From the NCBI GenBank assembly GCA_944390945.1, contig CALXRV010000011.1:1-37976 (forward strand): 37,976 nt of DNA, in the 5' to 3' direction. The notes beneath the pieces were generated by a model. It did no database searches. It was not told the DNA's origin and was given only the letters and a program-made list of their open reading frames with translations. Shown piece by piece: positions 7,178-31,181 of the stretch. Both the position numbers and the translations under genes were made by a program. This DNA is from an uncultured Clostridia bacterium. GTDB lineage: Bacteria > Bacillota > Dehalobacteriia > UBA4068. Numbering within the stretch: position 1 is the stretch's first letter; every line of letters begins with the position of its first letter.

Positions 7178-8185
7178 TCAACCAAAATAAGCATTAAAAC
7201 GCTCCGTACTGAAACGAGCGATTTCCTCCGCCAGTGCATCATAGCGGCGCAGTAATTCATGCGCTTCATCCGTCAAAGAAGAATGGCCGCCGCCCATGCC
7301 GCCGCGGCTGCTGACTAACAGACTGTAGCCAAGCTGCGTTTCAGCAATACGAATCGATTTCCATCCCTTGCTGTAAGATATCCCCAATGCAGCGCAGGCG
7401 GTACTCAATGAATGCTTGGCATCTGTCTGCCGCAGCAGCTCTGCCACCATGCTCGTGAAGAATGGTTTGCCACGGCCAAGCTGTATCTCGGTTTGGCAGC
7501 TGACCGGAATCTGCAGCACGACCTGCTGCGCATAGCGGCAAAATGCACGAAAATCCTCCGCTTTATCTACATCCAGATAAAGCCCGGGGTCAGCAAGTTC
7601 CAGCAAATGCTTCTCGCCTGAGTAGCTTTCGATCGCACCACGCAAGCCCTGCTCGCCACGATAGGCAAGCAGCTGCTCGATTGCAGTCCGCCGCAGCAAC
7701 ACCGGGTGCCCGCGCCTACCTTTGCAGCAAGGCTGCAGGATATCGCATTCGGGATGCGCCGCCATATGTCCAGCCATCTGCTGCAGACTATCAACATTCA
7801 ATACCGGAATATCGGATGGCAGGAAAAAGATCAAATCATATTCATTTGGCACAGCACCCAACCCACAACGCGCAGAATAAAACATATCCGTCTGCCGGGC
7901 AGCGCTATTGCTGATATAAAGAATATTCTTTGCGCCAAGATGCCGTTTCAGGGCATCGAGTATTCTGCCCCCCACAACGACCAGCAGTTCTGCTCCGGCC
8001 AGCCGCAGGTTGTCCGTCGTGGATTTGATCACCGTAGACCCGGCGAGTACCGGCAACGGCCGCAAAGAAGTATGTCGCAAACCCATGCCTGCGGCCACGA
8101 TCACCGCTGCAATTCGCATCATCATATCATCACCATCATCAATTCTTTGCCGCCCCGGCACTGGCCGCGGGGGAATTGAACTCAT
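7178..8185 (-). CDS. NTP transferase (MobA/MocA-like) fused to a ModE-like winged-helix domain
   Basis: A two-domain protein of 335 residues. Residues ~21-225 resemble MobA/MocA nucleotidyltransferases: VIVAAGMG at the nucleotide site, FFLPSDIPVL carrying the metal-binding aspartate, and KGRRGHPVLL. Residues ~235-335 resemble the N-terminal DNA-binding domain of ModE/LysR proteins (ALGISYSKGWKSIRIAETQLGYSL, then a glycine run RGGMGGG and SSLTDEAHELLRRY). The usual GxSxRMGxxK loop is altered to GMGLRHTSLRPLP, so the lysine is replaced and activity may be changed. The ATG at 8185 overlaps the upstream stop codon (ATGA), suggesting coupling; starts at 8125-8119 (MMMRIAA) are also possible. Last gene of the operon. 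It could be a regulator that senses a cofactor or nucleotide, or an enzyme tethered to DNA. Confidence 0.8.
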   Translation of the reverse strand: MSSIPPRPVPGRQRIDDGDDMMMRIAAVIVAAGMGLRHTSLRPLPVLAGSTVIKSTTDNLRLAGAELLVVVGGRILDALKRHLGAKNILYISNSAARQTDMFYSARCGLGAVPNEYDLIFFLPSDIPVLNVDSLQQMAGHMAAHPECDILQPCCKGRRGHPVLLRRTAIEQLLAYRGEQGLRGAIESYSGEKHLLELADPGLYLDVDKAEDFRAFCRYAQQVVLQIPVSCQTEIQLGRGKPFFTSMVAELLRQTDAKHSLSTACAALGISYSKGWKSIRIAETQLGYSLLVSSRGGMGGGHSSLTDEAHELLRRYDALAEEIARFSTERFNAYFG

Positions 8186-15499: not shown

Positions 15500-18421
15500 T
15501 TAGAAGAATTTCTCCGCGCCTTCGCCCAGCGGCTGGAAGAAGTCTTCGCCGCCGAACTTGACCGGGTTGGCCTTGATATCCTCCAGCTCCTCATAGAGGT
15601 CAGAGCCAAGGAAGTACTTATTCGGCTTGGGGCAAGGTTTGCCGGCCGCAATCGCATCCAAACCAGCCTTAATCTTATCCGGCGTGGCAGGCATCTCATA
15701 GATACGAACGCCGCAGGCATTGTTGATCGCATTCAGCACCGCAACATGGCCGGAAGCCTGGAAAGCTTCAGAAGCGCCGGAGCTGCCGAACGGACCCTGT
15801 TCATCCGGACGTTCATAATGGATGACATTGATCTCATCCGGAATATCATTGCAGTACGGAACGCCACAAGCAGCATGGTTCGTATGCTTCTTGACATCAT
15901 GGTAATTTTCCGAAAGCGCGAAGCCAATGCTGTGGCTGATGCCGCCATAAGCCTGACCGTTAACCGCCTGGATATTACCGATCTTACCGACATCATCCAC
16001 GCAGGTGAAGCGAATGCAACGCGCCTTGCCGGTCTTGGTATCAACTTCTACTTCTGCCATGTTCAGGCAGTAGGTGTAAGCCGGAGAAGGATCGCCGATG
16101 CCCGTATTCGGATCCGGACGGCAAAGGCCTTCCACTGCGGTGCAGGAGTACTTGCCGAAATATTTGGTCGGCAGTCCTTCCGCCACCATCTCGTCATAAG
16201 TCCGCCAGCTGCCATCCGGTTTACGCATCGCATCCATCAGCTTATTCGCGGCGATGATCGTCGCGTTACCGCTCATGAAGTGCGTCCGGCTGGCGCCCGA
16301 CATACCGGAATCCGGGCACAGTTTTGTATCATTCTGCACCAGACGGATATCTTCCGGCTTGACGCCCAACGGCTTCAACGCTTCCAGCGTCAGCATCAGG
16401 GAACCAATGTCACCGCCCTGACCGAGTTCCTGGTAGGTATCATATTTCGCGATCTTACCATCCGGCAGCAGTTCGAGCGCTGCAGAGGCGGAATCGGTCG
16501 GACCCTCTGTCACATTGAAACCACCCCAGGCCAAGCCCACGCCACGGCGTGCTTCCGGCGTATCCGCTGCCTTTGCTTCCGCAACCGCGCGATCATAATG
16601 CGGCTTGAGCAGCTTCATCATCTCTTCCATCGGGTACTGACGGAAAGGATAGCTGTTGATATTTGTCTGGCCAGGACGTGCGATGTTGATCCAACGGAAT
16701 TCGAACGGATCAATGCCCGCTTCCTCAGCCAACATATCGACGAGCGCCTCGCCGCAAGTATAAGCCTGAGGAGAACCATAGGAACGATATGCCGTACCAA
16801 AAGTATGGTTCGTATTCGCCACACGGGTCAAACCAGCCACATGCGGGACATAATACGGGAAGAAGGTGAAGCGCGGCGCCTTGGTCATCACGTCGTCGCC
16901 GCCCCAGGAATAGGCGCCATGGTCAAGACCGATATCGAATTCACCAGCAGTAATATGGCCATCCTTATCGCAGCCAAGACGGCCGTTGGAATAGGACGGG
17001 CAGCGTTTGCCGGAGAAGTGCTGATGTTCTTCATAAGTCATGGAAAGAGCGCAGGGCGCCTGCATGACGATAGCTGCAGCACCAGCCAGGCAGAGGTCGC
17101 CGGCATGGGTGGACCAACCAAAAGAAGCACCCGTCGGATTCATGATCACGCGCATATTCTCTTTCGGTACACCCAGGGAGTTGCCGATACGTCCCAAAGA
17201 GGAGTAGCAGCCCTGAGATTTGCACTGGAAGGTCAGCATGCCGTCTTCATCAAAGTAGGCCTGCACGGTATCGCCTTCAATGGAGAGGTGCGGCTCGCGC
17301 GTGCTGTGGAAGGAACCTTCCACCCAGTGCGCGGAATTTTCGATGATGTCGCCGACCTTAGAAGCATCTTCCAAACCAACGCCCTTGAGCACGGGCTGTT
17401 CGGCAAAGATGTTCGGCGTCTCTTCATGCACGCGGATAGCATCCGGCATAACCGCATCGAGATAAGTCAGGTATTCCGGCAGCTTCTCCACTTCCACCTT
17501 AACTTTCGGTACGGCGGCACGTGCATGCTCTTTCGTATCCGCCACAATCAGTGCAACCGGATCGCCCCAACGGAAGATCTTCGTATCGCAGAGGATCTTA
17601 CGGGCAGGCGCAGTGACCTTGGAACGTTCATGGAACTGGCCTTCCGGCATTACGTTCGTGCCGCCGGCTTCCAGAATATCCTTGGCCAAAATAACCTTCG
17701 CTACGCCAGGCATTTCTTCGGCTTCGCTGATATCAATGCTCTTGATGATACCATGGTGGCAGACGCGTGGCTGTACCATGACAACATGCCAGCTGTTCGG
17801 CGGCATCTTTAATTCCTGGTCGTCGCCATAATCCGCAACGCCGCAAACCTTGGCAAGAGCGGTCGGACGAACAACAGGTTTGCCGTAAAATTCACCGTCT
17901 TCCGGATTCTGGAAGCAGATATCTTCCAGTTTGCATTCACCGCGCATCACTTTTGCCGCTTCCATCACGCCGTCGACAATCTGTTTGTAACCGGTGCAAC
18001 GGCAGACATTGCGGTTCTTGGTAAACCAGTCACGGACTTCCTGACGCGTCGGGTTGTTGTTCTTCTGCAGCAGCGCATAGGCGGAAACGACAAATCCAGG
18101 GATGCAGAAGCCGCACTGAATCGAGCCACTGTTCATGAATGCGATTTGGATCGGATGCGGATGCATCGGCGTGCCGATACCTTCCACCGTGATCACCTGG
18201 CTGTACTCAGGAACATTTTTAATCTTTTTTGTGCAGGAACGGATGACCTCACCGTTGAGGATCACCGAGCAGCTGCCGCAAACGCCAGTACCACAACCAA
18301 CCTTCACGCTGGTGCAGCCCAGCCGGCGCAGAACGTCGGACAGCTTGTCCTGTTCCGGATCGCAAATAAACATGCGATTCGCGCCGTTGATGTTCAGCCA
18401 CATTTTTCGTAATGCCGCCAT
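15500..18421 (-). CDS. mop: Molybdenum-dependent aldehyde oxidoreductase, Mop type
   Basis: The ATG at 18421 has AGGAGG upstream and gives 973 residues; the frame extends to 18712 through a structured leader, which I reject. N-terminal plant-type [2Fe-2S] domain: C43, C48, C51 in GCGTGVCGSC, and C63. Second [2Fe-2S] domain: C103, C106 in QCGFC and C140, C142 in CRC. The molybdenum domains follow directly (GKPVVRPTALAKVCGVADY) without an FAD domain, as in Desulfovibrio Mop. A glutamate in GSSGASEAF near the C-terminus fits the catalytic position. The enzyme should oxidise aldehydes to acids using a molybdopterin cytosine dinucleotide and pass electrons to a flavodoxin, ferredoxin or the adjacent dicluster protein. 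Mop is about 907 residues, so this is somewhat longer. A xanthine-dehydrogenase-like substrate is possible. Confidence 0.88.
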   Translation of the reverse strand: MAALRKMWLNINGANRMFICDPEQDKLSDVLRRLGCTSVKVGCGTGVCGSCSVILNGEVIRSCTKKIKNVPEYSQVITVEGIGTPMHPHPIQIAFMNSGSIQCGFCIPGFVVSAYALLQKNNNPTRQEVRDWFTKNRNVCRCTGYKQIVDGVMEAAKVMRGECKLEDICFQNPEDGEFYGKPVVRPTALAKVCGVADYGDDQELKMPPNSWHVVMVQPRVCHHGIIKSIDISEAEEMPGVAKVILAKDILEAGGTNVMPEGQFHERSKVTAPARKILCDTKIFRWGDPVALIVADTKEHARAAVPKVKVEVEKLPEYLTYLDAVMPDAIRVHEETPNIFAEQPVLKGVGLEDASKVGDIIENSAHWVEGSFHSTREPHLSIEGDTVQAYFDEDGMLTFQCKSQGCYSSLGRIGNSLGVPKENMRVIMNPTGASFGWSTHAGDLCLAGAAAIVMQAPCALSMTYEEHQHFSGKRCPSYSNGRLGCDKDGHITAGEFDIGLDHGAYSWGGDDVMTKAPRFTFFPYYVPHVAGLTRVANTNHTFGTAYRSYGSPQAYTCGEALVDMLAEEAGIDPFEFRWINIARPGQTNINSYPFRQYPMEEMMKLLKPHYDRAVAEAKAADTPEARRGVGLAWGGFNVTEGPTDSASAALELLPDGKIAKYDTYQELGQGGDIGSLMLTLEALKPLGVKPEDIRLVQNDTKLCPDSGMSGASRTHFMSGNATIIAANKLMDAMRKPDGSWRTYDEMVAEGLPTKYFGKYSCTAVEGLCRPDPNTGIGDPSPAYTYCLNMAEVEVDTKTGKARCIRFTCVDDVGKIGNIQAVNGQAYGGISHSIGFALSENYHDVKKHTNHAACGVPYCNDIPDEINVIHYERPDEQGPFGSSGASEAFQASGHVAVLNAINNACGVRIYEMPATPDKIKAGLDAIAAGKPCPKPNKYFLGSDLYEELEDIKANPVKFGGEDFFQPLGEGAEKFF

Positions 18422-18510: not shown

Positions 18511-18541
18511 TATAAATAAAGCGCGGCCCGAAGGGCCGCGC
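18511..18541 (-). terminator. Leader terminator upstream of mop (attenuator)
   Basis: On the minus strand a perfect 9-bp stem (GCGCGGCCC / GGGCCGCGC, three-base loop) is followed by TTTATTTATA. It lies within the mop leader, after the structured element and ~90 bases before the start codon, which is the place expected for a riboswitch expression platform. Confidence 0.72.
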
Positions 18542-18605
18542 CACACACGCAAAAGGATACACTTCGCCAAAAAGCAGACATGGCATTGATGCGTGGAAAA
18601 CAGCG

Positions 18606-18700
18606 CAGCTCCTTCCCCACAGGAAGCATGGACGTTTCCCTCCATACTCTATCGTCTGCCACCCCATAGCCATTGCCTTAGGGAATGCAGATCGGAGCCG
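18606..18700 (-). promoter_or_regulatory. Structured leader before mop; candidate Moco/Tuco riboswitch aptamer
   Basis: On the minus-strand RNA a closing stem CGGCUCC/GGAGCUG (18700-18694 with 18612-18606) encloses three hairpins: P2 UCUGC/GCAGA (18691-18687 with 18659-18655), P3 GUAUGGA/UCCAUGC (18647-18641 with 18632-18626) whose loop is GGGAAACG, and P4 UUCC/GGAA (18625-18622 with 18616-18613). A terminator hairpin follows. The leader before the thiF-like gene (26625-26711) has the same plan and a UGGAAACG loop. Moco RNAs are known before molybdenum and tungsten enzyme genes and contain a GNRA tetraloop. The structure is seen by eye; the class is inference. Confidence 0.55.
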
Positions 18701-18739
18701 TTTGTTCACCATATCTAATTGACAGCTTTCGCTATTACG

Positions 18740-18938: not shown

Positions 18939-19334
18939 ATGCGTATTTCAATCGCAGTATTAGAAAAGATCCCCAAAGGGAAAATCCCGGAAAAATTGGC
19001 TGATGCACGCTATCTGTTCATTGTGGAAACTGAACAGAATCAAGTGATCCACATCGAAGATGGTACGCAGAGCAGCCAGCCGGATGTCGATTTTGCAAAA
19101 GCGACCCTGAAATGGGATTGTGAAGCGATCATCTGCGGCGCAGAGATTGAACGCGAAGCTTTTGATATTTTGGCGGACGCCCAAGTCTCCCGCTTTGACG
19201 GCTTTGGTTTTAATGCCAGTCAGGTGCTAAAGCAGCTCTATCTTTATCAGCTGCCGCTGATCCGTGAATACCGCGGGGGAACGGGTTGCCAGGGACATCA
19301 GCATCCGCATCATCATGAGGAAGAAGAAGAATAA
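18939..19334 (+). CDS. NifX/NifB-C-like dinitrogenase iron-molybdenum cofactor family protein
   Basis: A 131-residue protein of the NifX/NafY/NifB C-terminal domain family (PF02579-like). It starts MRISIAVLEKIPKGKIPEKLADARYLFIVE and continues to CEAIICGAEI and ADAQVSRFDGFGF, then a helix. The tail is unusual: GCQGHQHPHHHEEEEE, a His/Glu-rich end that could bind metal. Family members bind FeMo-cofactor precursors or other Mo-S-Fe units. No nitrogenase genes are in the window, so a role in handling molybdenum or tungsten species is more likely. Start: AGAGG lies a few bases before the ATG. The gene is monocistronic, divergent from mop, with its own promoter and a terminator at 19463-19495. Confidence 0.8.
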   Translation: MRISIAVLEKIPKGKIPEKLADARYLFIVETEQNQVIHIEDGTQSSQPDVDFAKATLKWDCEAIICGAEIEREAFDILADAQVSRFDGFGFNASQVLKQLYLYQLPLIREYRGGTGCQGHQHPHHHEEEEE

Positions 19335-19592: not shown

Positions 19593-21506
19593 CTATTCCC
19601 GGGAAATGGGAATGACCTCGCCGCTGCGCGTATAGCTGTAACCGCCCAGCTCATCAAGGCGGCGATGGAATTCCTCACTCCGCAAGACCGCAATGAAATG
19701 CTGAATATGCGGCAGATCGAGGAAGGCGCCAGGGATTGCAAAATCATATTCCTCCGGCCCGATTGCGATAAAGTCAAGCCCCATTGCCCGGGCTGCGGAA
19801 AGCACGCCCATACCAGCATCTGCACTGTCGCTCTGCACAGCCGCTGCTACCGCCATATGCGTCGTCGCCTCCCGTTCATAACCGTCGATCTGCTCCGGCG
19901 CAATACCCTTCTGCTTGAGCAAATGGTCGAATAATACGCGCGTCCCTGCTCCGCGCTGCCGGTTGACATAACGGCAACGCACCAGGTCCTCGATCCCACA
20001 GATCTGCAACGGATTACCCTTTTTCACCATCAAGCCCTGAATACGGCCTACGCCCTTGATGAGGGCCATCGGCTCCTGGAACAGGCGGCGCAGATAACTA
20101 AGATTGTATTCCCCAGTCTCTTCATCAAGCAAATGCGTCGGCGCAATATGCGCTTCACCCCGCTGCAGCGCCATCAGGCCTGCCATACTGCCAACATGCG
20201 TACTGGAAAGATGCTCGCCAGGATAGCGGTTCGGCATCAGGTCAGCGATCAGATCCAGGATCAGATCATGGCTGCCAATGGCAACTACCGTACGGTCGAT
20301 CTCGTCAAGATTACGGTACAATTCCACATCGACTGTTTCCCCAGCTTCAATGCCTTCGCTATGCTGTGGGATGACGCAGAATCCATCCGCACGCACCAAC
20401 GACATTGCAGCGCCGGCGCCACGCGCCAACGGCGCGGCAACGATACGATCATTGACCCGACCCACCTTCACGCGCACATATTCCCGATGCTTAAGCGAAG
20501 ATACCAGTCGTTTGGAAAGCACCGCCTCTACCATTCGGTTCTGTCGCGGCGGCTCGCCGGTAAACAGCGATAATACCGGCGCCACAAAATTTTCAAAACC
20601 AATATAGGCGGAAACAGGATATCCCGGCAGACCGATCACCGGTTTTCCCTGGACCACAGCAAGAATCACCGGTTTACCCGGTTTGATCGCCACGCCATGC
20701 ACAACCACCTCGCCCAGCTCGCGCAAAACATGGACGGTATAGTCCTCCGTGCCGGCACTGGAGCCGGCATTGACGATTACGCAGTCAAACTGCGCCACTG
20801 CCTCGCTGACCTTCTGTTTCAGCAGCTGAAAATCATCCGGCAGCGGCGCGAAACGCGTTGGTTCGCCGCCGCATTCGCAGACCATCGCTTCAAACATACG
20901 GGAATTCGATTCGATGATATCTCCCTCATGCGGCGTTTCCGTGGGTTCGATGATCTCGCTGCCAGTCGGAAAAATAGCGACGCGCGGGCGGCGATACACC
21001 TCCAGCTGTAAAATACCGCCGGAAAGCAACACGCCGATATCGATCGGCCGGATCGCATGACAGCTCGGCAGCAGCATTTCACCGGCAACAATATCCTCGC
21101 CGATCGGGCGCATATGCTGCCAGGGCGCCGCCGCTGCCGTAATCGCCAGCGTGCCGTCATCCTGCTGGATCAAATCTTCTGCCATGATCACAGCGTCAAA
21201 CGGCGGCCGTACTGGGTCGCCCGTATCAACGACACAGTAATCCTGCCCTGGTCGCAGGATCAGTGGTTGCGTTTCAGATGCACCTTTCGTCATCGCTGCC
21301 CTTACAGCGATACCATCCATCGCCGCTGCGTTGAATAATGGTGAACTGTATTTTGCATAAACTGCCTGCCAAGTAATACGGTGCAGGCTTTGCTCCGCTG
21401 CTACGCACTCCGATGTCGGCGCGACGCCGGAGCGCTGCAAAGCGGCAAGATACATCTCACGCGCCTCATCGACCGGCGTATTTTTCAAATATAGATTCCG
21501 TTCCAT
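19593..21506 (-). CDS. MoeA-type molybdotransferase fused to a PBP-like (molybdate-binding) domain
   Basis: The ATG at 21506 has AGGAGGG upstream and gives 637 residues. Residues ~1-405 are MoeA-like: SSPLFNAAAMDGIAVRA, the GSSAGTEDY form of the catalytic loop, KPGKPVIL and GLPGYPVSAY. Residues ~410-637 resemble the periplasmic-binding-protein-like domain found fused to MoeA (PF12727-like), with STHVGSMAGLMAL, RQRGAGTR and AGMGVLSAARAMG; it has no signal peptide, so it acts in the cytoplasm. MoeA enzymes insert molybdate or tungstate into adenylylated molybdopterin. The extra domain may bind or sense the metal oxyanion. It follows the second MoeA by ten bases and is the last gene of the AOR operon. 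Two different MoeA proteins suggest separate routes for Mo and W. Confidence 0.88.
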   Translation of the reverse strand: MERNLYLKNTPVDEAREMYLAALQRSGVAPTSECVAAEQSLHRITWQAVYAKYSSPLFNAAAMDGIAVRAAMTKGASETQPLILRPGQDYCVVDTGDPVRPPFDAVIMAEDLIQQDDGTLAITAAAAPWQHMRPIGEDIVAGEMLLPSCHAIRPIDIGVLLSGGILQLEVYRRPRVAIFPTGSEIIEPTETPHEGDIIESNSRMFEAMVCECGGEPTRFAPLPDDFQLLKQKVSEAVAQFDCVIVNAGSSAGTEDYTVHVLRELGEVVVHGVAIKPGKPVILAVVQGKPVIGLPGYPVSAYIGFENFVAPVLSLFTGEPPRQNRMVEAVLSKRLVSSLKHREYVRVKVGRVNDRIVAAPLARGAGAAMSLVRADGFCVIPQHSEGIEAGETVDVELYRNLDEIDRTVVAIGSHDLILDLIADLMPNRYPGEHLSSTHVGSMAGLMALQRGEAHIAPTHLLDEETGEYNLSYLRRLFQEPMALIKGVGRIQGLMVKKGNPLQICGIEDLVRCRYVNRQRGAGTRVLFDHLLKQKGIAPEQIDGYEREATTHMAVAAAVQSDSADAGMGVLSAARAMGLDFIAIGPEEYDFAIPGAFLDLPHIQHFIAVLRSEEFHRRLDELGGYSYTRSGEVIPISRE

Positions 21507-21516
21507 TCTTTCCCTC

Positions 21517-22755
21517 CTACCAGCGATAAACCTGCACCAAAGCTCCCTGAGGCAAGCCTTCGCGCTCCCCTTCGATGATGAGATAGCCGTCCGCACGCGC
21601 CACGGTCGTAATTAAGGCAGATTTGCCAAGCACCGGACGTGCCAGCAATTTTCCGTCTTTTTCGATCAACATGACCGGCTGACAAGTCAGGCGCCCCGGG
21701 GCGGCGGGTAAATTCGTTTCCAGTTCAGCGGTAAGCGGCAGCTGGGGAGCAACGCCGCACAAAGTCTCCCACAGCCAAACCAGCAACAGATGGAAAACCA
21801 TCAAAGCGGCAGCCGGATGCCCGGGCAGCCCCACGAGCAGCGTGCCGCTCGCGATATCCTTGGCCAATATGGTCGGCTTACCCGGCTTCAGCGCCAACCC
21901 ATGCGTAAATAGGCCCGGGCTGGCTACCTCATCCATCAGGCGGCCCGTCATATCTTTTTTACCCTGCGAACTGCCTCCAGATACGGCTATGATATCACTA
22001 TCATGCATGGCTTCCTGCAGTGCCTCGCGCAATAAGGGTTCTTCATCCTGTAGCACCCGAGTACGAACCACGAAAAACCCGGCCCGCTCTGCCAATGCCC
22101 GCAGCGCATAAGTATTAATATCGCGAATCTGACCACAGTTAGGCTTGCACTCTGCCGGAACCAGCTCATCACCGGTAGAAATAATGCTCAGCCGCAGCGG
22201 TTGCCAGACCGGCACCGTTGTCAGCCCCAATGCAGCCAGTGCGCCCAGCGCCCCAAACTCCAGCCGACTGCCAGCCGGCAAAACAAGATCTCCCTGACGG
22301 ACATCTTCCCCGGGAAACACCACATCCCGGCCATAGGCCACCGCTTGGTACAACGCAACATGCGTAGCATCAAACAGCTCACTGTGCTCGATCATCACCA
22401 TTGCATCAGCTCCGGGCGGCAACATGCCGCCGGTCGGGACATAAGCGCATTCACCCGGGCCGATCGCCGTGGCAGCCGCTTCCCCGATATGCACTTCATC
22501 CACGATCGTTAAAAACACGGGCAAGCTTTCGCCGGCGCCCTGCGTGTCAACAGCGCGCACCGCATAGCCGTCCACTGTAGCGCGCGCAAAAGCCGGCAGG
22601 GGCTCCGGCGCGCGGAAATCCTTTGCCAAAATGCGCCCCGCAGCCTCGCTAAACGGAATGTTTTCCTGCGGCAACGCCTTTTTTCCCATCTCTTCCATCG
22701 CTGCCAGCAGCTTTTGCCGCGCTGTGGCAAGCGTATCCACCTGGAATAGCTTCAT
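21517..22755 (-). CDS. moeA: Molybdopterin molybdotransferase MoeA
   Basis: The ATG at 22755 follows GGAGGAGGT and gives 412 residues, the normal MoeA length; the frame extends to 22920 through a terminator hairpin, which I reject. Motifs: FARATVDGYAVRA, the active-site loop SGGSSQGKKDMT, LKPGKPTILA and VGLPGHPAAAL. The enzyme ligates molybdate or tungstate to molybdopterin at the expense of the AMP-adduct, in the cytoplasm. It lies downstream of AOR and the MoaD-like gene and ten bases before the MoeA-PBP fusion. Pyrococcus-type organisms use one MoeA copy for tungsten, so this copy may be the tungsten-specific one; that is inference. Confidence 0.92.
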   Translation of the reverse strand: MKLFQVDTLATARQKLLAAMEEMGKKALPQENIPFSEAAGRILAKDFRAPEPLPAFARATVDGYAVRAVDTQGAGESLPVFLTIVDEVHIGEAAATAIGPGECAYVPTGGMLPPGADAMVMIEHSELFDATHVALYQAVAYGRDVVFPGEDVRQGDLVLPAGSRLEFGALGALAALGLTTVPVWQPLRLSIISTGDELVPAECKPNCGQIRDINTYALRALAERAGFFVVRTRVLQDEEPLLREALQEAMHDSDIIAVSGGSSQGKKDMTGRLMDEVASPGLFTHGLALKPGKPTILAKDIASGTLLVGLPGHPAAALMVFHLLLVWLWETLCGVAPQLPLTAELETNLPAAPGRLTCQPVMLIEKDGKLLARPVLGKSALITTVARADGYLIIEGEREGLPQGALVQVYRW

Positions 22756-22827
22756 CTCTTTACCTCCTCCCAGCAACAGGCAGCATCCCCCTGTAACAGG
22801 CAGCGCGTTCTGGGCTGCAATAAATGC

Positions 22828-22875
22828 AAAAACATGCCCGCAGGATACACGGGATACCCCGGTATCTTGCGGGCA
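22828..22875 (-). terminator. Intrinsic terminator between the MoaD-like gene and moeA
   Basis: On the minus strand a 14-bp stem (22875-22862 with 22848-22835, core TGCCCGCA) with one G-T pair is followed by TGTTTTTGC. It sits inside what otherwise looks like one operon, so it probably reduces moeA expression relative to AOR rather than ending the unit completely. Confidence 0.8.
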
Positions 22876-22916
22876 TAGGTTTTCCTGCCCTCCGGCTGCA
22901 GGCCCGTGCCGCAGGA

Positions 22917-23114
22917 TCAACCGCCGGCCAACAGGTGGTGGATCTTCAGATCATCCTCTTCCGCCACCAGTGTCGCGGCATAATCCTCCTTGCGGATCAG
23001 CTTGCCGTTCAGCTTCACCACCAGTTTCGGATAGATGAAATTGCGCTCATCTATCACATCCTGGATACTCATCCCCTGCCGCCAATGCAGATAGGGCCGG
23101 TCGTTCAACTGCAT
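22917..23114 (-). CDS. MoaD/ThiS family sulfur carrier protein
   Basis: A 65-residue ubiquitin-like protein ending in AGG. The double-glycine C-terminus is the hallmark of sulfur carriers that are adenylylated by MoeB/ThiF-type enzymes and then carry a thiocarboxylate. KLVVKLNGKLIRKEDY and AEEDDLKIHHLLAGG match the beta-grasp pattern. The ATG has AGGAGG seven bases upstream and lies 15 bases after the AOR stop. With the ThiF-like protein in the same operon it should supply sulfur for the dithiolene of the tungsten cofactor. Because no MoaE is seen here, a partner MoaE must lie elsewhere or be replaced. Confidence 0.87.
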   Translation of the reverse strand: MQLNDRPYLHWRQGMSIQDVIDERNFIYPKLVVKLNGKLIRKEDYAATLVAEEDDLKIHHLLAGG

Positions 23115-23129
23115 GGAATCATCCTCCTG

Positions 23130-25340
23130 CTACTGCAGCGGCTCGATCACCTCCAGAACCTCCGGGAAATCAATCCCGAGATCCTTGACGCGCTCGATCG
23201 TCGGCACGCCGTTCAGGTTCCAGCCGCGCCGCGGGTAAACCGCATCGATCAGCTTTTCATATTCAGCCTCTCTATATTTTCTCGTTTCGGCCATCTTTTC
23301 CTGCAGGCTCATCGCCGCGACCTGTTCTTTTGTAAAACCGACCAGATCCACCAGCTGTCCATCATAGCGCTCCTGGCGGGAAAGATATTCTTCCTCGGTT
23401 ACCGGGCCGGAAGAACGGTACGGAATGGCATCGTTCTTGCGCAGGCCTTTGCCCATACGAATATTGAAGATGCGCTGGAACTGATAGACCTTTTCCGACA
23501 TCCGCAGCATTCCGGGCGTATCAAGATGTTTGCCGGTAATGCCGTAATAGATATCGAAATAATTCTGCACATGCTCCGGCACCTTTGCCGGCTCATCCGT
23601 TTCGCTGTTGTTGGCAGGAACAATATCATTCCAGGGTAGCTTGCACAGGCCAAGCAGACCAAACCAGGTACGGAACATCGGGAAGTAATAAAGCGCTTCC
23701 GCCTTGTCTTCGAAAGTTGGGATCTGATTATTGACCTGATCCATAAAGATCAGCCAGGCTTCGTCATGCTGAGGCCCCTTGTTGGTCAGACCATAACCGC
23801 CCTTCTGCGCCAGCGATTCCTTGGAATTGTATTCCGAATACTCCAGTCCCTTCTGCTCCATACCGATATCTTCCAGGAACTGCGCGTCTGCACCATACTG
23901 TTCAACAAAGATCTTCTTCATCTTGTGCACGCCCTGGCCTGCAATCTGGCCAAATCCTTCATTACGCGCAATCTGATGCATCATTTCCAATGCAGCTTCC
24001 CAGTTGCCAAAATTCAATTCCAGCCCACCGGTAATCTCCTTATTGAGAATACCTGCTTCATAGCATTCCATGATAAACGCGGTCATCGTACCAAACGAAA
24101 TGGTATCCAAACCATAAGTGTCGCAGTAGAAATTCAGCTCGAGTATGGCCTCCGGGTCATCAATGCCACAGTTCGGACCCAAGCCAGCACCGTTTTCATA
24201 TTCCGGGCCATCGATGCAGACCGCCTGTCCCTTGTATGGGCCGGTCTTCAGTTTGAAATGGTCGGCCGCTTTGGCGCAGGCCATCGAGCAGCCATACCAA
24301 CAACCATCCGCCGCACCCTGCGTCAGATATTTTTCAATAAATACCGTGGAGCGGAAGCGATCGATGCCAGGATGGCTACCGAATTTGAAATTGTTGGTCG
24401 GCAGGATATCATAAGCATCCATCACTTCCAGGATGTTCGCCGTACCCACCTTACGCATTCCGTTCTGCAAATTATCAAGATCATGAATTTCCTTATGATA
24501 TTTTTTCCCCACCTGATTGATGATGCTGATATCATAAGGGTCGTTAAGATCTGCTTTCACGCCGGAGAACTTGCAGACCAGCGCCTTGATATTCTTATGG
24601 CGGAATACTCTGCCCAGTCCGCCGCGGCCAGCCTGTTTCAGCCGAACCACACCGCGGTTCGGATCATAGAAGGTGAAGTTGATCATGCCAATATTGGAAT
24701 ACTTGGCCGCAGAACCGGCGCAGACCACCGCCACATTCTTACGGTCATTTTCATCATCCGCATACATATAGGTCAATTCTTCACCCAATACATGCGCATC
24801 TTCATGCTCCAGCGGTGCGGTCTCGATCGAAATGGTGTTTTTATTGCCGTCAATGACGAGGATCACATCTTCCTTTGCCGTTCCCTTCAAGGTCAGGCCG
24901 TCAAAGCCGGAGAACTTGAGCAGCGGGCCAAAATAACCGCCCACATTCGTATCAAAAGGGGTATCTGTCAACGGAGAAATCGAGCAGAGCAGCGTTTTAC
25001 CAGTACCAGCATACTGTGTTACCCCGCAGAGCGGGCCGGGCGACATGGTGATCGCATTTTCCGGCGAATCCCAACGCGTGCTGGGCTTGACCTCATCCCA
25101 GAGATAGCGCAGGCAATAGCCCTTGCCACCGGTAAACACTTCTTTTACCTTCGGGTCGATATCCGTAATCTCGATGCTGTTGCGGCTGAAATCCACAGTA
25201 AGGTATTTGTCCGTATACCCGCGGTGAATCGGTTTATGGTCATAAGTGATCCGTGTCAATTCCACATGCGCATCCTGCATGCGTTTCAATTCTTCCGCCG
25301 GGATGCCGTGATACTTCTTCACATCGCAAATCCTGATCAT
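23130..25340 (-). CDS. aor: Tungsten-containing aldehyde:ferredoxin oxidoreductase (AOR family)
   Basis: The ATG at 25340 has AAGGAGG about 8 bases upstream and gives 736 residues, longer than ~605-residue archaeal AOR because of an N-terminal extension of about 40 residues before GYTDKYLTVDF and a C-terminal extension. Pterin-binding segments are seen at GGKGYCLRYLWDEV, SPGPLCGVTQYAGTGKT and AGRGGLGRVFRHKNIKA. The 4Fe-4S ligands are CWYGCSMAC, with spacing CxxxCxxxC rather than CxxCxxxC, plus a later cysteine in LLGLCKLPWND. The enzyme should interconvert aldehydes and acids with a bis-tungstopterin centre and pass electrons to the ferredoxin encoded 13 bases upstream. Other AOR-family roles, such as BamB-like, are possible because the subfamily is not resolved. 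Confidence 0.93.
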   Translation of the reverse strand: MIRICDVKKYHGIPAEELKRMQDAHVELTRITYDHKPIHRGYTDKYLTVDFSRNSIEITDIDPKVKEVFTGGKGYCLRYLWDEVKPSTRWDSPENAITMSPGPLCGVTQYAGTGKTLLCSISPLTDTPFDTNVGGYFGPLLKFSGFDGLTLKGTAKEDVILVIDGNKNTISIETAPLEHEDAHVLGEELTYMYADDENDRKNVAVVCAGSAAKYSNIGMINFTFYDPNRGVVRLKQAGRGGLGRVFRHKNIKALVCKFSGVKADLNDPYDISIINQVGKKYHKEIHDLDNLQNGMRKVGTANILEVMDAYDILPTNNFKFGSHPGIDRFRSTVFIEKYLTQGAADGCWYGCSMACAKAADHFKLKTGPYKGQAVCIDGPEYENGAGLGPNCGIDDPEAILELNFYCDTYGLDTISFGTMTAFIMECYEAGILNKEITGGLELNFGNWEAALEMMHQIARNEGFGQIAGQGVHKMKKIFVEQYGADAQFLEDIGMEQKGLEYSEYNSKESLAQKGGYGLTNKGPQHDEAWLIFMDQVNNQIPTFEDKAEALYYFPMFRTWFGLLGLCKLPWNDIVPANNSETDEPAKVPEHVQNYFDIYYGITGKHLDTPGMLRMSEKVYQFQRIFNIRMGKGLRKNDAIPYRSSGPVTEEEYLSRQERYDGQLVDLVGFTKEQVAAMSLQEKMAETRKYREAEYEKLIDAVYPRRGWNLNGVPTIERVKDLGIDFPEVLEVIEPLQ

Positions 25341-25353
25341 CTGCCCAACCTCC

Positions 25354-25740
25354 TTATGCTTCTTCAATCCGAATCGCGCCGGTGGGGCAGGCCTTTACGC
25401 AAAGCCCGCAAGCCGTGCACTTCGACGGTTCCAGATGGTCGTCGCACTGCACCATGATCTGCAGCGGGCAAAAGCCCACGCACATCAGGCAGCCGGCACA
25501 TTCCTTTTTATTCAACATATACACGCCTTTGGCGTTCGGCTGGATCACACCGGTATTACAAACCGCAGCGCATTCACCGCACTGCGTGCAAACGGTGATC
25601 TCATAGCCGCCTTCTTCCTTTTCCGTGATGCGTATCGCCGACTTGGCGCTGTCCTCAACTTTGTAAAAAGCCTTGGAGCAGGCAGCCTCGCATTGACGGC
25701 AGCCGATGCACAACGAATCATCCTTCACTACCCGTTTCAC
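25354..25740 (-). CDS. Four-cluster 4Fe-4S ferredoxin, AOR electron-transfer subunit
   Basis: A 128-residue polyferredoxin with four cysteine motifs: CIGCRQCEAAC, CTQCGECAAVC, CAGCLMCVGFC and CTACGLCVKAC. Such AorB-like subunits relay electrons between AOR and ferredoxin or a flavin subunit in the cytoplasm. The GTG start at 25740 overlaps the stop of the ThiF-like gene as GTGA and has GGGAGG seven bases upstream. It precedes AOR by 13 bases. All cysteines needed for four clusters are present. No separate flavin subunit is encoded beside it. Confidence 0.92.
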   Translation of the reverse strand: MKRVVKDDSLCIGCRQCEAACSKAFYKVEDSAKSAIRITEKEEGGYEITVCTQCGECAAVCNTGVIQPNAKGVYMLNKKECAGCLMCVGFCPLQIMVQCDDHLEPSKCTACGLCVKACPTGAIRIEEA

Positions 25741-26444
25741 GATTTTTCCTCCCTTGCCTGATTTTCTCCCATATCGAGCACATCATACTGATGTTGCAAT
25801 AAATCCAGATAAAGCAGCCGACCGCGCAAAATACCTTCCCTCTGCAACAGCACTTTCACCGCTTCCGCTGTCTGCAATGCAGCGACGGCAGCCGGCGTAA
25901 ACGACGGATTGCCGAACGCTGCCTCTGCGCCCGCACCATCGAATCCCGCATAATATTTGGAAAGCAGCTTGTCGCCGGGGAAACAGACGCCAACCTGGCC
26001 ATACCAACCGGCGATCGCACCATGAACGAGCGGAATACCCAGCCGCTCAGTAGCAGCCTCCAGGACCAGCCGCGTCGGGATGCCATCGCTGCAGTCGAGC
26101 ACCAGATCGCTACCGGCCAGCAGTTCCTCGGCATTTTCCGCGTCCAACCGTACGTTCAGCGGTCGAAATACCACGTCAGGGTTTACCGCCATGATACGCT
26201 GCTCTGCCGCCATGACCTTCAACATACCAAGTGTGGCCTCGTTCGCCAGCAGCTGTCGGTTGAGGTTTGTCACTTCCACCCGGTCGTCATCGATGCCGGT
26301 AATCCGACCGACGCCAACCCGAGCCAGCAGCTCTGCGGCATAACCGCCTAAACCGCCCAAACCGACTATGGCAACATGACGCGAATGCAGGTATTCCGTC
26401 TCTTTTTCTGCAATGCACGATGCATTGCGCGCGTATCGCTCCAT
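25737..26444 (-). CDS. ThiF/MoeB/HesA family adenylyltransferase
   Basis: A 235-residue E1-like enzyme. The nucleotide loop GLGGLGG (residues ~28-34) is followed by DDDRVEVTNLNRQ, with the conserved acidic residue and the arginine needed for ATP binding, and by DCSDGIPTR. These enzymes adenylylate the C-terminal glycine of MoaD/ThiS-type proteins. It is the first gene of the AOR operon, and the matching GG-tailed carrier lies three genes later. No zinc-binding CxxC pairs are seen, unlike classical MoeB. Start: ATG with AAGGGA seven bases upstream. Very likely it activates the MoaD-like protein for pterin sulfuration; a role in thiamine or cysteine synthesis is less likely in this context. Confidence 0.9.
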   Translation of the reverse strand: MERYARNASCIAEKETEYLHSRHVAIVGLGGLGGYAAELLARVGVGRITGIDDDRVEVTNLNRQLLANEATLGMLKVMAAEQRIMAVNPDVVFRPLNVRLDAENAEELLAGSDLVLDCSDGIPTRLVLEAATERLGIPLVHGAIAGWYGQVGVCFPGDKLLSKYYAGFDGAGAEAAFGNPSFTPAAVAALQTAEAVKVLLQREGILRGRLLYLDLLQHQYDVLDMGENQAREEKS

Positions 26445-26474: not shown

Positions 26475-26510
26475 AAAAAACCATGGCTACGCTGAAAACA
26501 GCTGCCATGG
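26475..26510 (-). terminator. Leader terminator before the thiF-like gene (attenuator)
   Basis: On the minus strand a CCATGGC/GCCATGG stem (26510-26504 with 26487-26481), extended by CAGC/GCTG inside, is followed by TTTTTT (26480-26475). It ends ~30 bases before the start codon and would stop transcription inside the leader, as expected for riboswitch control. Confidence 0.85.
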
Positions 26511-26557: not shown

Positions 26558-26595
26558 TATCCCGCTCAGGTTATACTATCCCGCTCAGGTTATAC
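26558..26595. repeat. Perfect 19-base tandem duplication in the AOR-operon leader
   Basis: TATCCCGCTCAGGTTATAC occurs twice head to tail (26558-26576 and 26577-26595) with no mismatch. It lies between the putative aptamer and the terminator. It may be recent slippage, or two copies of a binding site or linker. Confidence 0.95.
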
Positions 26596-26624
26596 GGACA
26601 GAAAAAGAGACCGGCGCTTTTTCG

Positions 26625-26711
26625 GAACCTTTCCAAGCGGGAGGCGCTGCCGTTTCCAACAACACCCATTGGCCGACCACCATCGTGCAGGCACTTTAGG
26701 CGGCTAGGCTC
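26625..26711 (-). promoter_or_regulatory. Structured leader of the AOR operon; candidate Moco/Tuco riboswitch aptamer
   Basis: On the minus-strand RNA GAGCC/GGUUC (26711-26707 with 26629-26625) closes a junction. Inside are a GC-rich P2 arm built on GCCG/CGGC and a hairpin GUUGUUG-GAAA-CGGCAGC (26663-26646), seven pairs capped by a GNRA tetraloop, followed by a CCUCC-containing arm. Order, sizes and the GGAAACG loop match the mop leader. Downstream genes are a tungsten enzyme and its cofactor genes, which fits a tungsten-cofactor sensor. The 396-base gap 26445-26840 also holds the promoter, a 19-base repeat and a terminator, but no gene. Confidence 0.55.
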
Positions 26712-26773
26712 GGATTCCTAAGGAATCATATGCATGAACATGTAAAAATGCAGCCATTCATCTAGCTGAATTC

Positions 26774-26802
26774 ATTATAGCACTGTCTGCAAATCCTGTC
26801 AA
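26774..26802 (-). promoter_or_regulatory. Promoter of the AOR operon
   Basis: On the minus strand TTGACA (26802-26797) and TATAAT (26779-26774) with a 17-base spacer, a consensus promoter. It starts only 38 bases after the tupC stop codon with no terminator in between. Confidence 0.9.
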
Positions 26803-26840: not shown

Positions 26841-27527
26841 CTACCAGCTCTGTACGCTCTGCTCCGCCACAAAGCGGCGTACGGCGTCATTTGCCGGATG
26901 CAGCAGCATCTGTTCTGCCGTGCCGCTGGCCAGATGACGCCCTTTTTCCAAAAAATGTATTTCGTCACATACACGGAATAGATGCGGCAGCTGATGGCTG
27001 ATCAGAATCCAAGTGATCGACCGCGTCGCCTGTCGCTCCAGCATCCATCCTTCAAAAAGCCTTGTACTATCCGGATCCAGATTGGAAAGCGTTTCGTCTA
27101 CGATCACCAGCTGCGGGTCAAAAATAAGCGCACGTGCAAACGAAAGTTTTTGCTGCTCCCCACTGCTCAGGCTGCGTGCGGATTGCTTTCGCTTATCTGC
27201 AAGACCACAACGCGCGAGCCATTGCTCCACACGCGTTTCATCCGGCCGGATCCCACGCAAGCGTAACGGATAGACCAAATTCTTATAAACAGAATCATGC
27301 AGCATATAGGGCTTCTGCGCCGTCATCGTGATATCGCGCGGTTTCAATCCCTCATAATCAATACTGCCGGCATCCGCTATCAGCGTGCCCGCCAGCAGGC
27401 GGCATAGCGTGGTTTTACCACAACCATTGGGGCCGATCAAACCGTGAATCCGTCCCGGCGCCAGATAGAGGTCCCTGATCTGCAGGTGGAAATCCCCCAG
27501 TTTTTTTTCCAGCTCAATCATCCTCAT
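26841..27527 (-). CDS. tupC: Tungstate ABC transporter ATP-binding protein TupC
   Basis: The ATG at 27527 has AAGGAGG about nine bases upstream and gives 228 residues; an ATG two codons later is less well spaced. It shows Walker A GPNGCGKTT, the signature LSSGEQQKLSFARAL, Walker B LVIVDETLSNLD and the H-loop SHQ. The protein is short and lacks the C-terminal TOBE/MOP domain of ModC, which fits TupC. It powers uptake of tungstate together with the permease, whose gene it overlaps by 14 bases. Cytoplasmic face of the membrane. Confidence 0.88.
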   Translation of the reverse strand: MRMIELEKKLGDFHLQIRDLYLAPGRIHGLIGPNGCGKTTLCRLLAGTLIADAGSIDYEGLKPRDITMTAQKPYMLHDSVYKNLVYPLRLRGIRPDETRVEQWLARCGLADKRKQSARSLSSGEQQKLSFARALIFDPQLVIVDETLSNLDPDSTRLFEGWMLERQATRSITWILISHQLPHLFRVCDEIHFLEKGRHLASGTAEQMLLHPANDAVRRFVAEQSVQSW

Positions 27528-28212
27528 CCGGCGTATCCTCCTTACGAAAATGATCGGCAAGACATTGTATGATGAAAGCCATGATCATCAACAGAACACC
27601 AAGAAATATTCCTGCTTCAAAATCACCGGCGCTCTTCAGCGCAGAAATCGTCGTTGTCATCGTACGCGTACTGTTCTTGATATTGCCACCAATCAGAAAA
27701 ACAGCGCCGACTTCACTGATCGAACGGCCATAGCCGGTAACTACGGCAAAATATACCTCGTTCTTCATTTCCCGCAGCAACAGCCAACGGGTCTGGCGCT
27801 CTGTCGCGCCCATCGTTTTGGCAAAGGCATAAACCGCTGGCGCAATGCGTTCTGCATAAGAATGAATCAGTCCGCAGATCAGTGGCGTAATGATCAACAC
27901 TTGTGCAAACACCATGCCCTGAATGGTAAATACCCATTCCAGCATGCCCAGTGGTCCTTTATTGCGCAGCAACATATACGAAAACAGGCCGATCACCACC
28001 GGCGGCGCAGCCATCAAGGTTCGGTTCAACCGCACCACAATACGTTTACCGGCGAACTGCGCGCGCTGCAGCAACAAACCAAGCAATACACCAAGAACAG
28101 AAGAGATCAGCACTGACCAGAAGGACATCACCAGCGTGACGCGGATCGAATCCGTAACGCCGACCATGGAAAAAAAATCAGAAAAGAACCCGGAAAAGAG
28201 ACGATCGGCCAT
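27514..28212 (-). CDS. tupB: Tungstate ABC transporter permease TupB
   Basis: The ATG at 28212 has GGAGGG five bases upstream and gives 232 residues; an in-frame ATG at 28224 lacks a site. About five to six membrane helices are visible, beginning with IRVTLVMSFWSVLISSVLGVLLGLLL. The coupling segment GATERQTRWLLLREMKNEVYFAVVTGYGRSISEVGAVFLIGGNIKNSTRTM contains the EAA-type loop and the GRSISEVGAV pattern found in tungstate permeases. It forms the channel in the cytoplasmic membrane for tungstate delivered by TupA. A sulfate or molybdate permease is the nearest alternative; the binding protein favours tungstate. Confidence 0.88.
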   Translation of the reverse strand: MADRLFSGFFSDFFSMVGVTDSIRVTLVMSFWSVLISSVLGVLLGLLLQRAQFAGKRIVVRLNRTLMAAPPVVIGLFSYMLLRNKGPLGMLEWVFTIQGMVFAQVLIITPLICGLIHSYAERIAPAVYAFAKTMGATERQTRWLLLREMKNEVYFAVVTGYGRSISEVGAVFLIGGNIKNSTRTMTTTISALKSAGDFEAGIFLGVLLMIMAFIIQCLADHFRKEDTPDEDD

Positions 28213-28273
28213 ATAGCCCTCCATCCAGAGAAGCGGGTGGGCTCATGCCCACCCGCCATCCGCGCCTGTAACT

Positions 28274-29212
28274 TTACTGATCGCTGCCAGCATTGGGGAA
28301 GAACAGCGGTTCGCCGTACTGATCCACACCATATTCTGCGATCAACGCCTGCACTTCATCCGAGCAAATCCATTCGATGAACGCATTTGCACCCTCGATG
28401 TTTGTTTCCGGCCACTGCTCTGGGTTGACCGCGATCACGCCATACTGATTAAGCAGATTGCTGTCGCCCTCGCAGATAATGCTCATCGTCGGGAAATCCG
28501 CCTGACGGGAAAGCCAGGTGCCACGGTCAGAGAGGCAGTAAGCCTGCAACTCATCAGCCATGGTCAGCGTATCGCCCATGCCCGCGCCGGCCGACACATA
28601 ATTCGGATTGCTTTCATAATCAAGCCCCAGCGCTTCCCAGATACCGGTTTCTTTCGTGTGCGTACCGGAATCATCGCCGCGAGAAACAAAAGACAGACTC
28701 TCATCGAGGATCTGTTGGAACACCGCATTGATGTCGCTGCTAACCGCGATTGCGCCATCCGTCGGGCCAACGATCACAAAGTCATTGTACATCACAGGAA
28801 AACGTTCCACGCCATAGCCGTCCGCAACGAACTGCTCCTCGCGCGCCTTCGCATGAACCAGCAGGACATCCGCCTCACCGTCCATGCCGAGCTGCAGCGC
28901 AGCGCCGGTGCCGACCGCCGTCCATTCCAGCGTCCAACCGGTATCTTCCTGGAAGAGCGGTGCCAGATAATCCAGCAGACCGGTATCATCCGTGCTCGTG
29001 GTCGTCGCCATCAGCAAAACGCCCTTTTCCTCTACCGCGCCTTCAGACTCCGCCTCTGCTTCTGCATCAGCGTCTTCCGACTGCTCCGAACCCGCCTGTT
29101 CCTGCTCACCTTCCGGCAGCGTCGTCTCATCGGTCGTATCACCGCAAGCGGCCAAAGCAAAGATGCACATCGTCAAAACACAGATCAACAACAGACTAAA
29201 CTTTTTTTGCAT
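28274..29212 (-). CDS. tupA: Tungstate-binding lipoprotein TupA
   Basis: The ATG at 29212 follows GGAGGAG and gives 312 residues. A lipoprotein signal peptide ends in LAAC (C23). The mature N-terminus is a long acidic linker of Glu/Asp/Ser (about residues 24-60). The binding domain starts at LLMATTTSTDDTGLL, whose TTTST element is the tungstate-binding signature of TupA, and includes SFVSRGDDSGTH. The protein is anchored outside the cytoplasmic membrane and passes tungstate to TupBC. It leads the tupABC operon from a consensus promoter and is divergent from the GTPase-ABC gene. Molybdate cannot be excluded, but the motif and the AOR neighbours favour tungstate. Confidence 0.92.
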   Translation of the reverse strand: MQKKFSLLLICVLTMCIFALAACGDTTDETTLPEGEQEQAGSEQSEDADAEAEAESEGAVEEKGVLLMATTTSTDDTGLLDYLAPLFQEDTGWTLEWTAVGTGAALQLGMDGEADVLLVHAKAREEQFVADGYGVERFPVMYNDFVIVGPTDGAIAVSSDINAVFQQILDESLSFVSRGDDSGTHTKETGIWEALGLDYESNPNYVSAGAGMGDTLTMADELQAYCLSDRGTWLSRQADFPTMSIICEGDSNLLNQYGVIAVNPEQWPETNIEGANAFIEWICSDEVQALIAEYGVDQYGEPLFFPNAGSDQ

Positions 29213-29269
29213 TGAACTCTCCTCCTCAAACAGACAAAGATCAGCACATTCTTCTGTCAAAGCCTACGT

Positions 29270-29651: not shown

Positions 29652-31181
29652 ATGAAGCTCGTCACGGTAGCCGGCCCGCCTTCTTCCGGCAAAACAGCTG
29701 TATTGCTGCAGCTGATCCGCCATTTTCAACAAAACGGGCAACAGGCGGGCGTTGTCAAATTTGATTGTCTGACCTCTTTCGATCATCTGCGCTATGCAGA
29801 ACATGGCATTCCCGTCAAGATCGGGTTTTCCGGCAAATTCTGTCCTGATCACTATTATGTCAGCAATATCGAAGACGCGCTCAACTGGGGAAAACGTATG
29901 GGGTTGGATTGGCTGTTGACAGAAAGCGCCGGGCTCTGCAACCGATGCTCCCCTTACATCAAAGGTGTCACGGCAGTCTGCGTCATCGATTGCCTGGCTG
30001 GCATGTCTACACCGCGCAAGATCGGCCCGCTGCTGCAGTTTGCCGATATTGTCGCGGTCACGAAAGGCGATATCGTCTCCCAAGCCGAACGGGAGGTGTT
30101 TTCCCATAATATTCGCGCGGTAAATCCTCGCGCTGCAATCCTGCACATCAACGGTATTACTGGCCAGGGTTCTGTTTTGTTACACCAGTCCCTGCTGACC
30201 ACGCGTGATACCCAGACCCTGCGTGATAGCCGCCTGCGTTTTTCCATGCCCTCGGCCGTCTGCTCCTACTGCACCGGTGAAATCAAGATCGGCGATGCCT
30301 ACCAGATGGGCATGATGCGCAAGATGAATTTTGACGGTGAAGATGTCCTTGCGGAAGAAGAGCAGCTTCCGGTGCCGCAACAATCGTCGGAGCAATCAGA
30401 GAACCGCTTCCGCAGCCTGCACACGCTGACCATCTGCAGCGGACATGATAAAGACGGCCAGCCGGAAAAACATGACTGCATGGTCCATGCGGAACAGGTG
30501 GTGGCGATCGTCGGTCCGACCGGCGCAGGGAAAAGCCAGCTGCTTGCAGATATTGAATGCCTTGCGCGCGGGGATACGCCGACCGGCCGCACCATATTGC
30601 TCGATGGGGAAACCGCCAGCGATAAAGAACGATTTCATCCTGCAGAAAAACCCGTCGCGCAGCTTTCGCAGAATATGAACTTTGTTGCGGATATGACGGT
30701 GCAGGAATTCCTGCGCAGCCATGCGGATAGCCGTGGGCTGCGGGATACGGAATCCCTGGTGGAGCTCTGCTTTTCCTGTGCCAATACGCTTTCCGGCGAG
30801 CAGTTTCGCCCCACGGATAAGGTGACGCGCCTTTCTGGTGGGCAATCGCGCGCATTGATGATTGCTGACGTTGCTTTTCTCAGTGCATCGCCGATCGTGC
30901 TGATCGATGAAATCGAAAATGCTGGTGTCGACCGGCGCCGCGCGATCGAACTTCTAGCGCAGAACGGCAAGATGATCTTCCTTTCCACGCATGATCCGCT
31001 GTTGGCGCTGCGCGCGGACAAGCGCATTGTCATCCGTAACGGCGGCATTGCCGAGATCCGGGATACGACGGCGGCAGAGCGCAACAGCCTGCTGCGACTG
31101 GAACAGATGGATCGGGAATTGCAGGCCTGCCGGGATCTGTTGCGGGGTGGCGACGAAGTCATCCCGACTGTGCTGGCCTAA
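29652..31181 (+). CDS. HypB/CobW-like GTPase fused to an ABC-type ATPase
   Basis: A 509-residue cytoplasmic protein with two nucleotide-binding halves. Residues 1-~200 form a P-loop GTPase of the HypB/UreG/CobW type: GPPSSGKT (8-15), a switch-like region with KFDC and FCPDHYY, a cysteine pair LCNRC (96-99), and TKGD (137-140) as a G4-like motif. A CxxC pair (C204, C207) follows. Residues ~255-500 form an ABC ATPase: Walker A GPTGAGKS (288-295), signature LSGGQ (394-398), Walker B IVLIDEIEN with D419/E420, and the H-loop STHD. There are no membrane segments. Such GTPases insert or deliver metals, and the gene is divergent from tupA. I infer a metal-handling or enzyme-activation role for tungsten or molybdenum; the actual partner is unknown. 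Start: ATG with AAGGAAG upstream. Confidence 0.85.
   Translation: MKLVTVAGPPSSGKTAVLLQLIRHFQQNGQQAGVVKFDCLTSFDHLRYAEHGIPVKIGFSGKFCPDHYYVSNIEDALNWGKRMGLDWLLTESAGLCNRCSPYIKGVTAVCVIDCLAGMSTPRKIGPLLQFADIVAVTKGDIVSQAEREVFSHNIRAVNPRAAILHINGITGQGSVLLHQSLLTTRDTQTLRDSRLRFSMPSAVCSYCTGEIKIGDAYQMGMMRKMNFDGEDVLAEEEQLPVPQQSSEQSENRFRSLHTLTICSGHDKDGQPEKHDCMVHAEQVVAIVGPTGAGKSQLLADIECLARGDTPTGRTILLDGETASDKERFHPAEKPVAQLSQNMNFVADMTVQEFLRSHADSRGLRDTESLVELCFSCANTLSGEQFRPTDKVTRLSGGQSRALMIADVAFLSASPIVLIDEIENAGVDRRRAIELLAQNGKMIFLSTHDPLLALRADKRIVIRNGGIAEIRDTTAAERNSLLRLEQMDRELQACRDLLRGGDEVIPTVLA

Follow-up and report, generated by a model that had tools for sequence, protein, structure and literature searches.

P3-less RF01055 leaders on neighboring molybdenum and tungsten enzyme operons argue against P3 as the mark of the cofactor metal

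Does the P3 arm of a riboswitch tell whether the RNA senses the molybdenum (Moco) or the tungsten (Tuco) form of the cofactor? In 2008 it was proposed, on the basis of 176 examples of which 58 were P3-less, that a P3 arm marks sensors of Moco and its absence sensors of Tuco (Regulski et al., 2008; PMC2408646). Since then, the discrimination between the two cofactors in this riboswitch family has rested on that correlation, as the instability of the ligand blocked direct proof; deletion of P3 from the Escherichia coli RNA abolished regulation (PMC2408646) and did no more than that, so the rule is a correlation. No later work on P3 or Tuco RNAs was found in the open-access literature. The window analyzed here (the whole 37,976-nt stretch of contig CALXRV010000011.1 of an uncultured Clostridia bacterium) carries two P3-less leaders, A and B, one heading a molybdenum operon and the other, at a distance of 8 kb in the same genome, a tungsten operon; together they form a natural pair for testing the specificity rule.

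Leader B is a genuine, ordinary member of the known RF01055 riboswitch family. Its sequence (26727-26614, minus strand) is a full-length match to the Rfam model (cmscan; 60.3 bits against a gathering cut-off of 36 bits, model positions 1-135, E = 3e-12) and reaches 72.7 bits with our own model (R1). The region 26625-26711, singled out in the original prediction, spans the aptamer from P1 to P1' on the minus strand. P4 is capped by a GNRA tetraloop and P2 carries the tetraloop receptor, and the adjoining genes are of the kinds expected for Moco/Tuco synthesis, transport or use (thiF, AOR and moeA downstream, tupABC upstream). The GAAA cap foreseen for P4 is present, whereas the stem comprises 11 pairs (G-U included) instead of seven; P1 is interrupted by a U bulge or a U-U mismatch. 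The closing stem, arm order and GGAAAC loop said to be common to leaders A and B are indeed shared, and the full-length RF01055 match of each explains this by homology.

Table 1. Features of the two leaders and their operons (positions in the window).
Feature	Position	Strand	Basis or remark
Leader B, RF01055 aptamer, P3-less, 114 nt	26614..26727	-	cmscan, 60.3 bits
Leader B putative promoter, TTGACA-17-TATAAT with extended -10 TG	26774..26802	-	scan; sigma-70-type match, 12/12 consensus
Leader B P1, closing stem: GGAAUCC (26718-26712) with GGUUCC (26629-26624)	26624..26718	-
Leader B P2 with tetraloop-receptor bulge CCUAA...AUGG	26672..26709	-	model alignment
Leader B J2/4, four nt (CAAU), place of P3, no P3	26668..26671	-
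Leader B P4, 11 pairs (G-U included), GAAA tetraloop	26642..26667	-
Leader B 5' hairpin GAUUCC-UUA-GGAAUC	26713..26727	-	minimum-energy fold (prediction)
Leader B 5' UTR, exact 19-nt tandem repeat GTATAACCTGAGCGGGATA x2, between riboswitch and terminator	26558..26595	-
Leader B intrinsic terminator, U6	26475..26510	-	sequence, folding
ThiF/MoeB-family adenylyltransferase, first gene behind leader B	25737..26444	-	Pfam PF00899
Polyferredoxin, several 4Fe-4S, likely AOR partner	25354..25740	-	AOR neighbor in most related loci
AOR-family oxidoreductase (AFOR_N, AFOR_C), presumed tungsten enzyme	23130..25367	-	metal: family knowledge and tup neighborhood
MoeA	21517..22920	-
MoeA fused to PBP-like domain	19593..21596	-
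tupABC-type tungstate transporter	26841..29260	-	tupA 29260-28274, tupB 28224-27514, tupC 27560-26841
Leader A (mop leader), RF01055 aptamer, P3-less	18593..18709	-	cmscan, 61.6 bits, full length
Leader A intrinsic terminator and U tract	18520..18542	-
Molybdopterin-dependent aldehyde oxidoreductase, xanthine oxidase family, Mop-like	15500..18421	-	NF045668, 1118 bits, above cut-off

The structure is well supported by comparison. The fold z-scores of the two leaders are -4.1 and -3.7, and 40 relatives without P3 served to build a model that retrieved and aligned 100 leaders; in these, 29 of the 30 base pairs are altered on both sides (702 cells). The covariation score of 0.555 lies far above that of shuffled alignments (0.206; reached by 0 of 500 shuffles) and of slid controls (0.10-0.17), and 83% of the alignment cells pair; fitting the alignment to the structure biases the pairing counts in favor of the latter, and the margin is nonetheless large. 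The covariation check suggested for this design thus yields compensatory changes that back it. A first alignment combining P3-bearing and P3-less RNAs had P2 misplaced and was dropped, the P3-less alignment A2 being used instead.

Leader B stands between tupABC and the thiF-ferredoxin-AOR-moeA-moeA/PBP operon. TupA has a TTTST motif, and the model matches of TupA and TupB are below the curated cut-offs. The xanthine-oxidase-family (XO) gene behind leader A is accompanied by partner and maturation genes. Enzymes of the XO family use molybdenum and those of the AOR family tungsten, with E. coli YdhV as the known molybdenum exception among the latter, and Mop-type XO and AOR enzymes both oxidize aldehydes. 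The view that one design serves a molybdenum and a tungsten operon holds: RF01055 precedes the hydroxylase (NF045668) as well as the AOR behind tupABC. Judged by its AOR (73% similarity), the organism stands near gut Oscillospiraceae/Lachnospiraceae-like Clostridia, mostly known from metagenomes, and in the orthologous gut-Clostridia operons a P3-less RNA lies between tup and moeA-moeA/PBP-fdx-AOR (L042, L100, L038, L044, L035 and L037). At positions ~1470-1830 (+), the tup/moeA-AOR leaders of L042, L100, L038, L044 and L035 have an extended P5 hairpin, e.g., GCAUC...GAUGC. In L096, L101 and L049, ferredoxin-AOR is followed by XO and an NAD(P)-binding partner, which places tungsten and molybdenum aldehyde oxidoreductases in one string. 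Three other genes of the window were noted: (i) where the molybdenum hydroxylase cluster ends, a fusion of a MocA-like cytidylyltransferase with a ModE-like DNA-binding domain (7178-8185, minus strand); (ii) next to leader A but on the other strand, a small protein that weakly matches the Nitro_FeMo-Co domain (18939-19334, plus strand); and (iii) beyond tupABC, a protein of which one half resembles the HypB GTPase and the other an ABC ATPase (29652-31181, plus strand).

In the RF01055 model alignment the P3 columns are deleted in leader A, in leader B and in a third copy of the RNA in the same genome. The pair was expected to reveal how the metal forms of the cofactor are told apart; P3 is missing from all three RNAs, so it does not do so, and P3, absent from both the molybdenum and the tungsten leader, is no discriminator at this locus. 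Leader B has the mark of the 2008 Tuco subclass, the absence of P3. P3-less RNAs are not confined, as that proposal has it, to genes of MPT synthesis or Tuco use, because leader A and 15 other XO-operon leaders are of this type.

These relatives come from a survey of 193 leaders in 80 genomes of one phylum (two samples, among the matches listed; relatives are not independent). Downstream genes were labeled by tblastn with Pfam-typed references, counting genes within 4.5 kb or the first gene. P3 was called by stem search and by eye, automatic hairpin/P2 scoring having left 25 of the 193 leaders ambiguous; every sequence of at least 125 nt, and every one called P3-bearing, was inspected visually. 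Among the matches listed, P3 was present in 64 leaders and absent in 129. An XO-family gene lay within 4.5 kb of 11 leaders, none of them with P3, and a search with Mop relatives added five XO-operon leaders from four new genomes, likewise P3-less (5/5), which brings the XO-operon leaders to 16/16 without P3 (198 leaders, all among the matches listed). In the five added cases, a putative MoeA-like molybdopterin-binding gene, recognized by eye, lies between the leader and XO. P3 was found in 0/6 leaders with AOR within 4.5 kb and in one leader of the formate dehydrogenase type, 12 others lacking it (among the matches listed). The corresponding figures, again among the matches listed, were 10/12 for leaders with mod as the first gene, 5/24 for those with TupA within 4.5 kb, and 28 with against 15 without for molybdopterin synthesis leaders.

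The difference between mod and tup leaders (p = 0.0008, among the matches listed, relatives not being independent) makes the 2008 pattern visible in transporters. A larger one separates XO from mod leaders (p = 5e-6, among the matches listed), both of which belong to molybdenum. At the genome level, AOR occurred in 20 of the 27 genomes whose leaders all bear P3 and in 21 of the 27 whose leaders all lack it (p = 1.0, among the matches listed); P3 type does not follow the organism's use of tungsten. Since the 16 XO and six AOR leaders, molybdenum and tungsten alike, are all P3-less, P3 gives no indication of which metal the enzyme encoded downstream uses. The useful result is thus a negative one: P3 separates no molybdenum from tungsten enzyme operons, either here or in these 22 leaders (among the matches listed). 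The leader pair and the survey of 198 relatives argue against the proposed P3 rule, and P3 would, as the survey says, follow gene class (transport, synthesis), not enzyme metal. We prefer the reading (probability roughly 0.6) that leader B is a P3-less RF01055 RNA controlling the thiF-ferredoxin-AOR-moeA operon, that leader A does likewise for the molybdenum hydroxylase operon, and that P3 does not decide the metal.

Two further arrangements were seen among the relatives. Triple tandem RF01055 leaders, as reported for Syntrophomonas wolfei, occur at L183:10010-10616 (-), where one copy has a long P2 insertion, and at L202:6509-7259 (-). Several leaders without P3 (in L123, L189, L187 and L118) stand ahead of very large proteins, of which some carry S-layer domains and some a molybdopterin domain of the sulphite oxidase type (PF00174).

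If the 2008 rule held, both P3-less leaders would sense Tuco and shut off (or set) both operons; at leader A, plentiful tungsten cofactor would silence the molybdenum enzyme and AOR would take over, an isoenzyme switch by metal. The adjacency of molybdenum XO and tungsten AOR in this genome, the direct succession of AOR and XO in L096, L101 and L049, and the bias of transporter leaders described above (tup mostly P3-less, mod mostly P3-bearing; p = 0.0008, among the matches listed) would all suit this scheme, as would the lack of a recognized ModA in the ~85% complete genome and the same idea put forward for the S. wolfei sulphite-oxidase genes (PMC2408646). It demands, however, the opposite logic at leader B, where Tuco would turn off the very enzyme that uses tungsten, and it has to accommodate 16/16 P3-less XO-operon leaders in genomes of several families (among the matches listed). 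We consider it unlikely.

The aptamer core was also searched for another metal code, and among 440 column tests no column passed correction; the two groups of leaders are not neatly divided by any core position. The core of leader A has the P4 base GAGU/GCUU and a P2-basal U-A in place of G-C, and recurs in four leaders from the same family, of which two have XO behind them and the other two a MobA-like NTP transferase. The GAGU/GCUU base is found before tup, AOR and moa/moe genes as well and is thus no metal code. The P2-basal pair has an A as its 3' member in 6/11 XO leaders vs. 1/24 tup/AOR leaders (among the matches listed; related leaders inflate the counts). Predicted beforehand, this A was then seen in three of five new XO leaders and two of four new genomes (p = 0.01 and 0.045), giving 9/16 vs. 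1/24 overall (among the matches listed). The enrichment of this junction-side A in hydroxylase leaders is a weak lead. On that basis the two leaders could be tuned separately, leader A and other XO leaders having changed the junction to sense Moco and leader B, which keeps G-C, sensing Tuco. The skewed counts and the fulfilled prediction would agree with such tuning, but 7/16 XO leaders retain G-C, so that the A is not required, and the site was picked from tests of which none survived correction, with counts inflated by relatedness; we hold it to be improbable. A bolder version, in which the adjacent leaders form a metal-dependent molybdenum/tungsten aldehyde oxidoreductase isoenzyme switch with selectivity set by the P2-basal pair and not by P3, seems likewise improbable.

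If P3 is no metal determinant, as in the preferred reading, a leader without it would suit molybdenum and tungsten operons alike, so that A and B either share one pool of cofactor or owe their tuning to a different site. Both leaders are most likely cofactor OFF-switches acting by termination, where we infer the metal of the ligand and the OFF direction. The pyranopterin cofactor (Moco and/or Tuco) would bind the junction and stabilize P1, whereupon the downstream terminator would halt transcription; this scheme draws on the terminators and on homology to E. coli moaA, which is under OFF regulation by Moco (PMC2408646). The terminator anticipated after leader B was found: CCATGGCAGCTG-TTTT-CAGCGTAGCCATGG-TTTTTT (26510-26475, minus strand), ~104 nt beyond the aptamer and ahead of the first start codon at 26444. 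It is absent from the list of a simple scanner, probably on account of its interrupted stem. Terminator-like hairpins lie downstream of 5/5 type-A leaders. In leader B, the predicted 5' hairpin takes the 5' strand of P1 and would therefore rival its formation, and for each copy of the 19-nt repeat a 13-nt pairing with the aptamer's 3' core is predicted, which 0.4% of shuffled repeats equal; hairpin and repeat are candidate switching strands. Against the OFF reading, such a switch is less intuitive on enzyme genes than on biosynthesis genes. An antiterminator formed by the P1 flank and a terminator arm in type-A leaders beat shuffles in two of five cases, the leader's own terminator not being preferred; in leader A it is a possible, weakly supported element.

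In equilibrium folding the terminators of both leaders form with or without P1, and coupling of aptamer and terminator was not seen. Leader B might accordingly be a decayed or non-switching attenuator, whose terminator folds regardless and whose P1 is weakened by the hairpin and the bulge. The terminator's pair probability (0.99-1.0 with and without P1) and the unconstrained fold, which favors the hairpin 26727-26713 over P1, would be expected of such an element. Equilibrium folding of a whole leader is, however, a poor guide to co-transcriptional switching, and the full-length model match, the intact core, GAAA loop and receptor, and the perfect promoter make decay highly improbable.

The third RF01055 copy of the genome (1.89 Mb, ~85% complete; C65:35871-35992 = L106:10001-10122, minus strand; 67.7 bits, P3-less) serves a Peripla_BP_2/FecCD-type ABC transporter. 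A GGAG inside its P1, ~10 nt before the ATG, is a likely ribosome-binding site, and its position probably places this copy under translational control. Leaders A and B are of the terminator type, the third copy probably of the translational type.

Membership of RF01055 is in itself ordinary; the value of the locus lies in the natural, adjacent pair. Leader B equals the P3-less type of Regulski et al. (2008; PMC2408646) in its P1-P2-P4-P5 architecture, GAAA tetraloop with receptor and conserved junction, as well as in the lack of P3, the downstream terminator and the tungsten-enzyme operon. What differs is its partner, since leader A precedes a molybdenum hydroxylase, which the P3 rule would assign to P3-bearing RNAs. 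The Moco RNA of E. coli moaA is of the same family and core but has P3, acts by translational control and governs biosynthesis genes; the third copy resembles it in control, with the likely ribosome-binding site in P1, but is P3-less. The closest precedent for leader A is found in the P3-less RNAs on putative sulphite oxidase genes of S. wolfei (exception c in PMC2408646), likewise a presumed molybdenum enzyme. There the exception comprised two cases, whereas here it extends to XO as a second family of enzymes, all 16 leaders of which, among the matches listed, lack P3.
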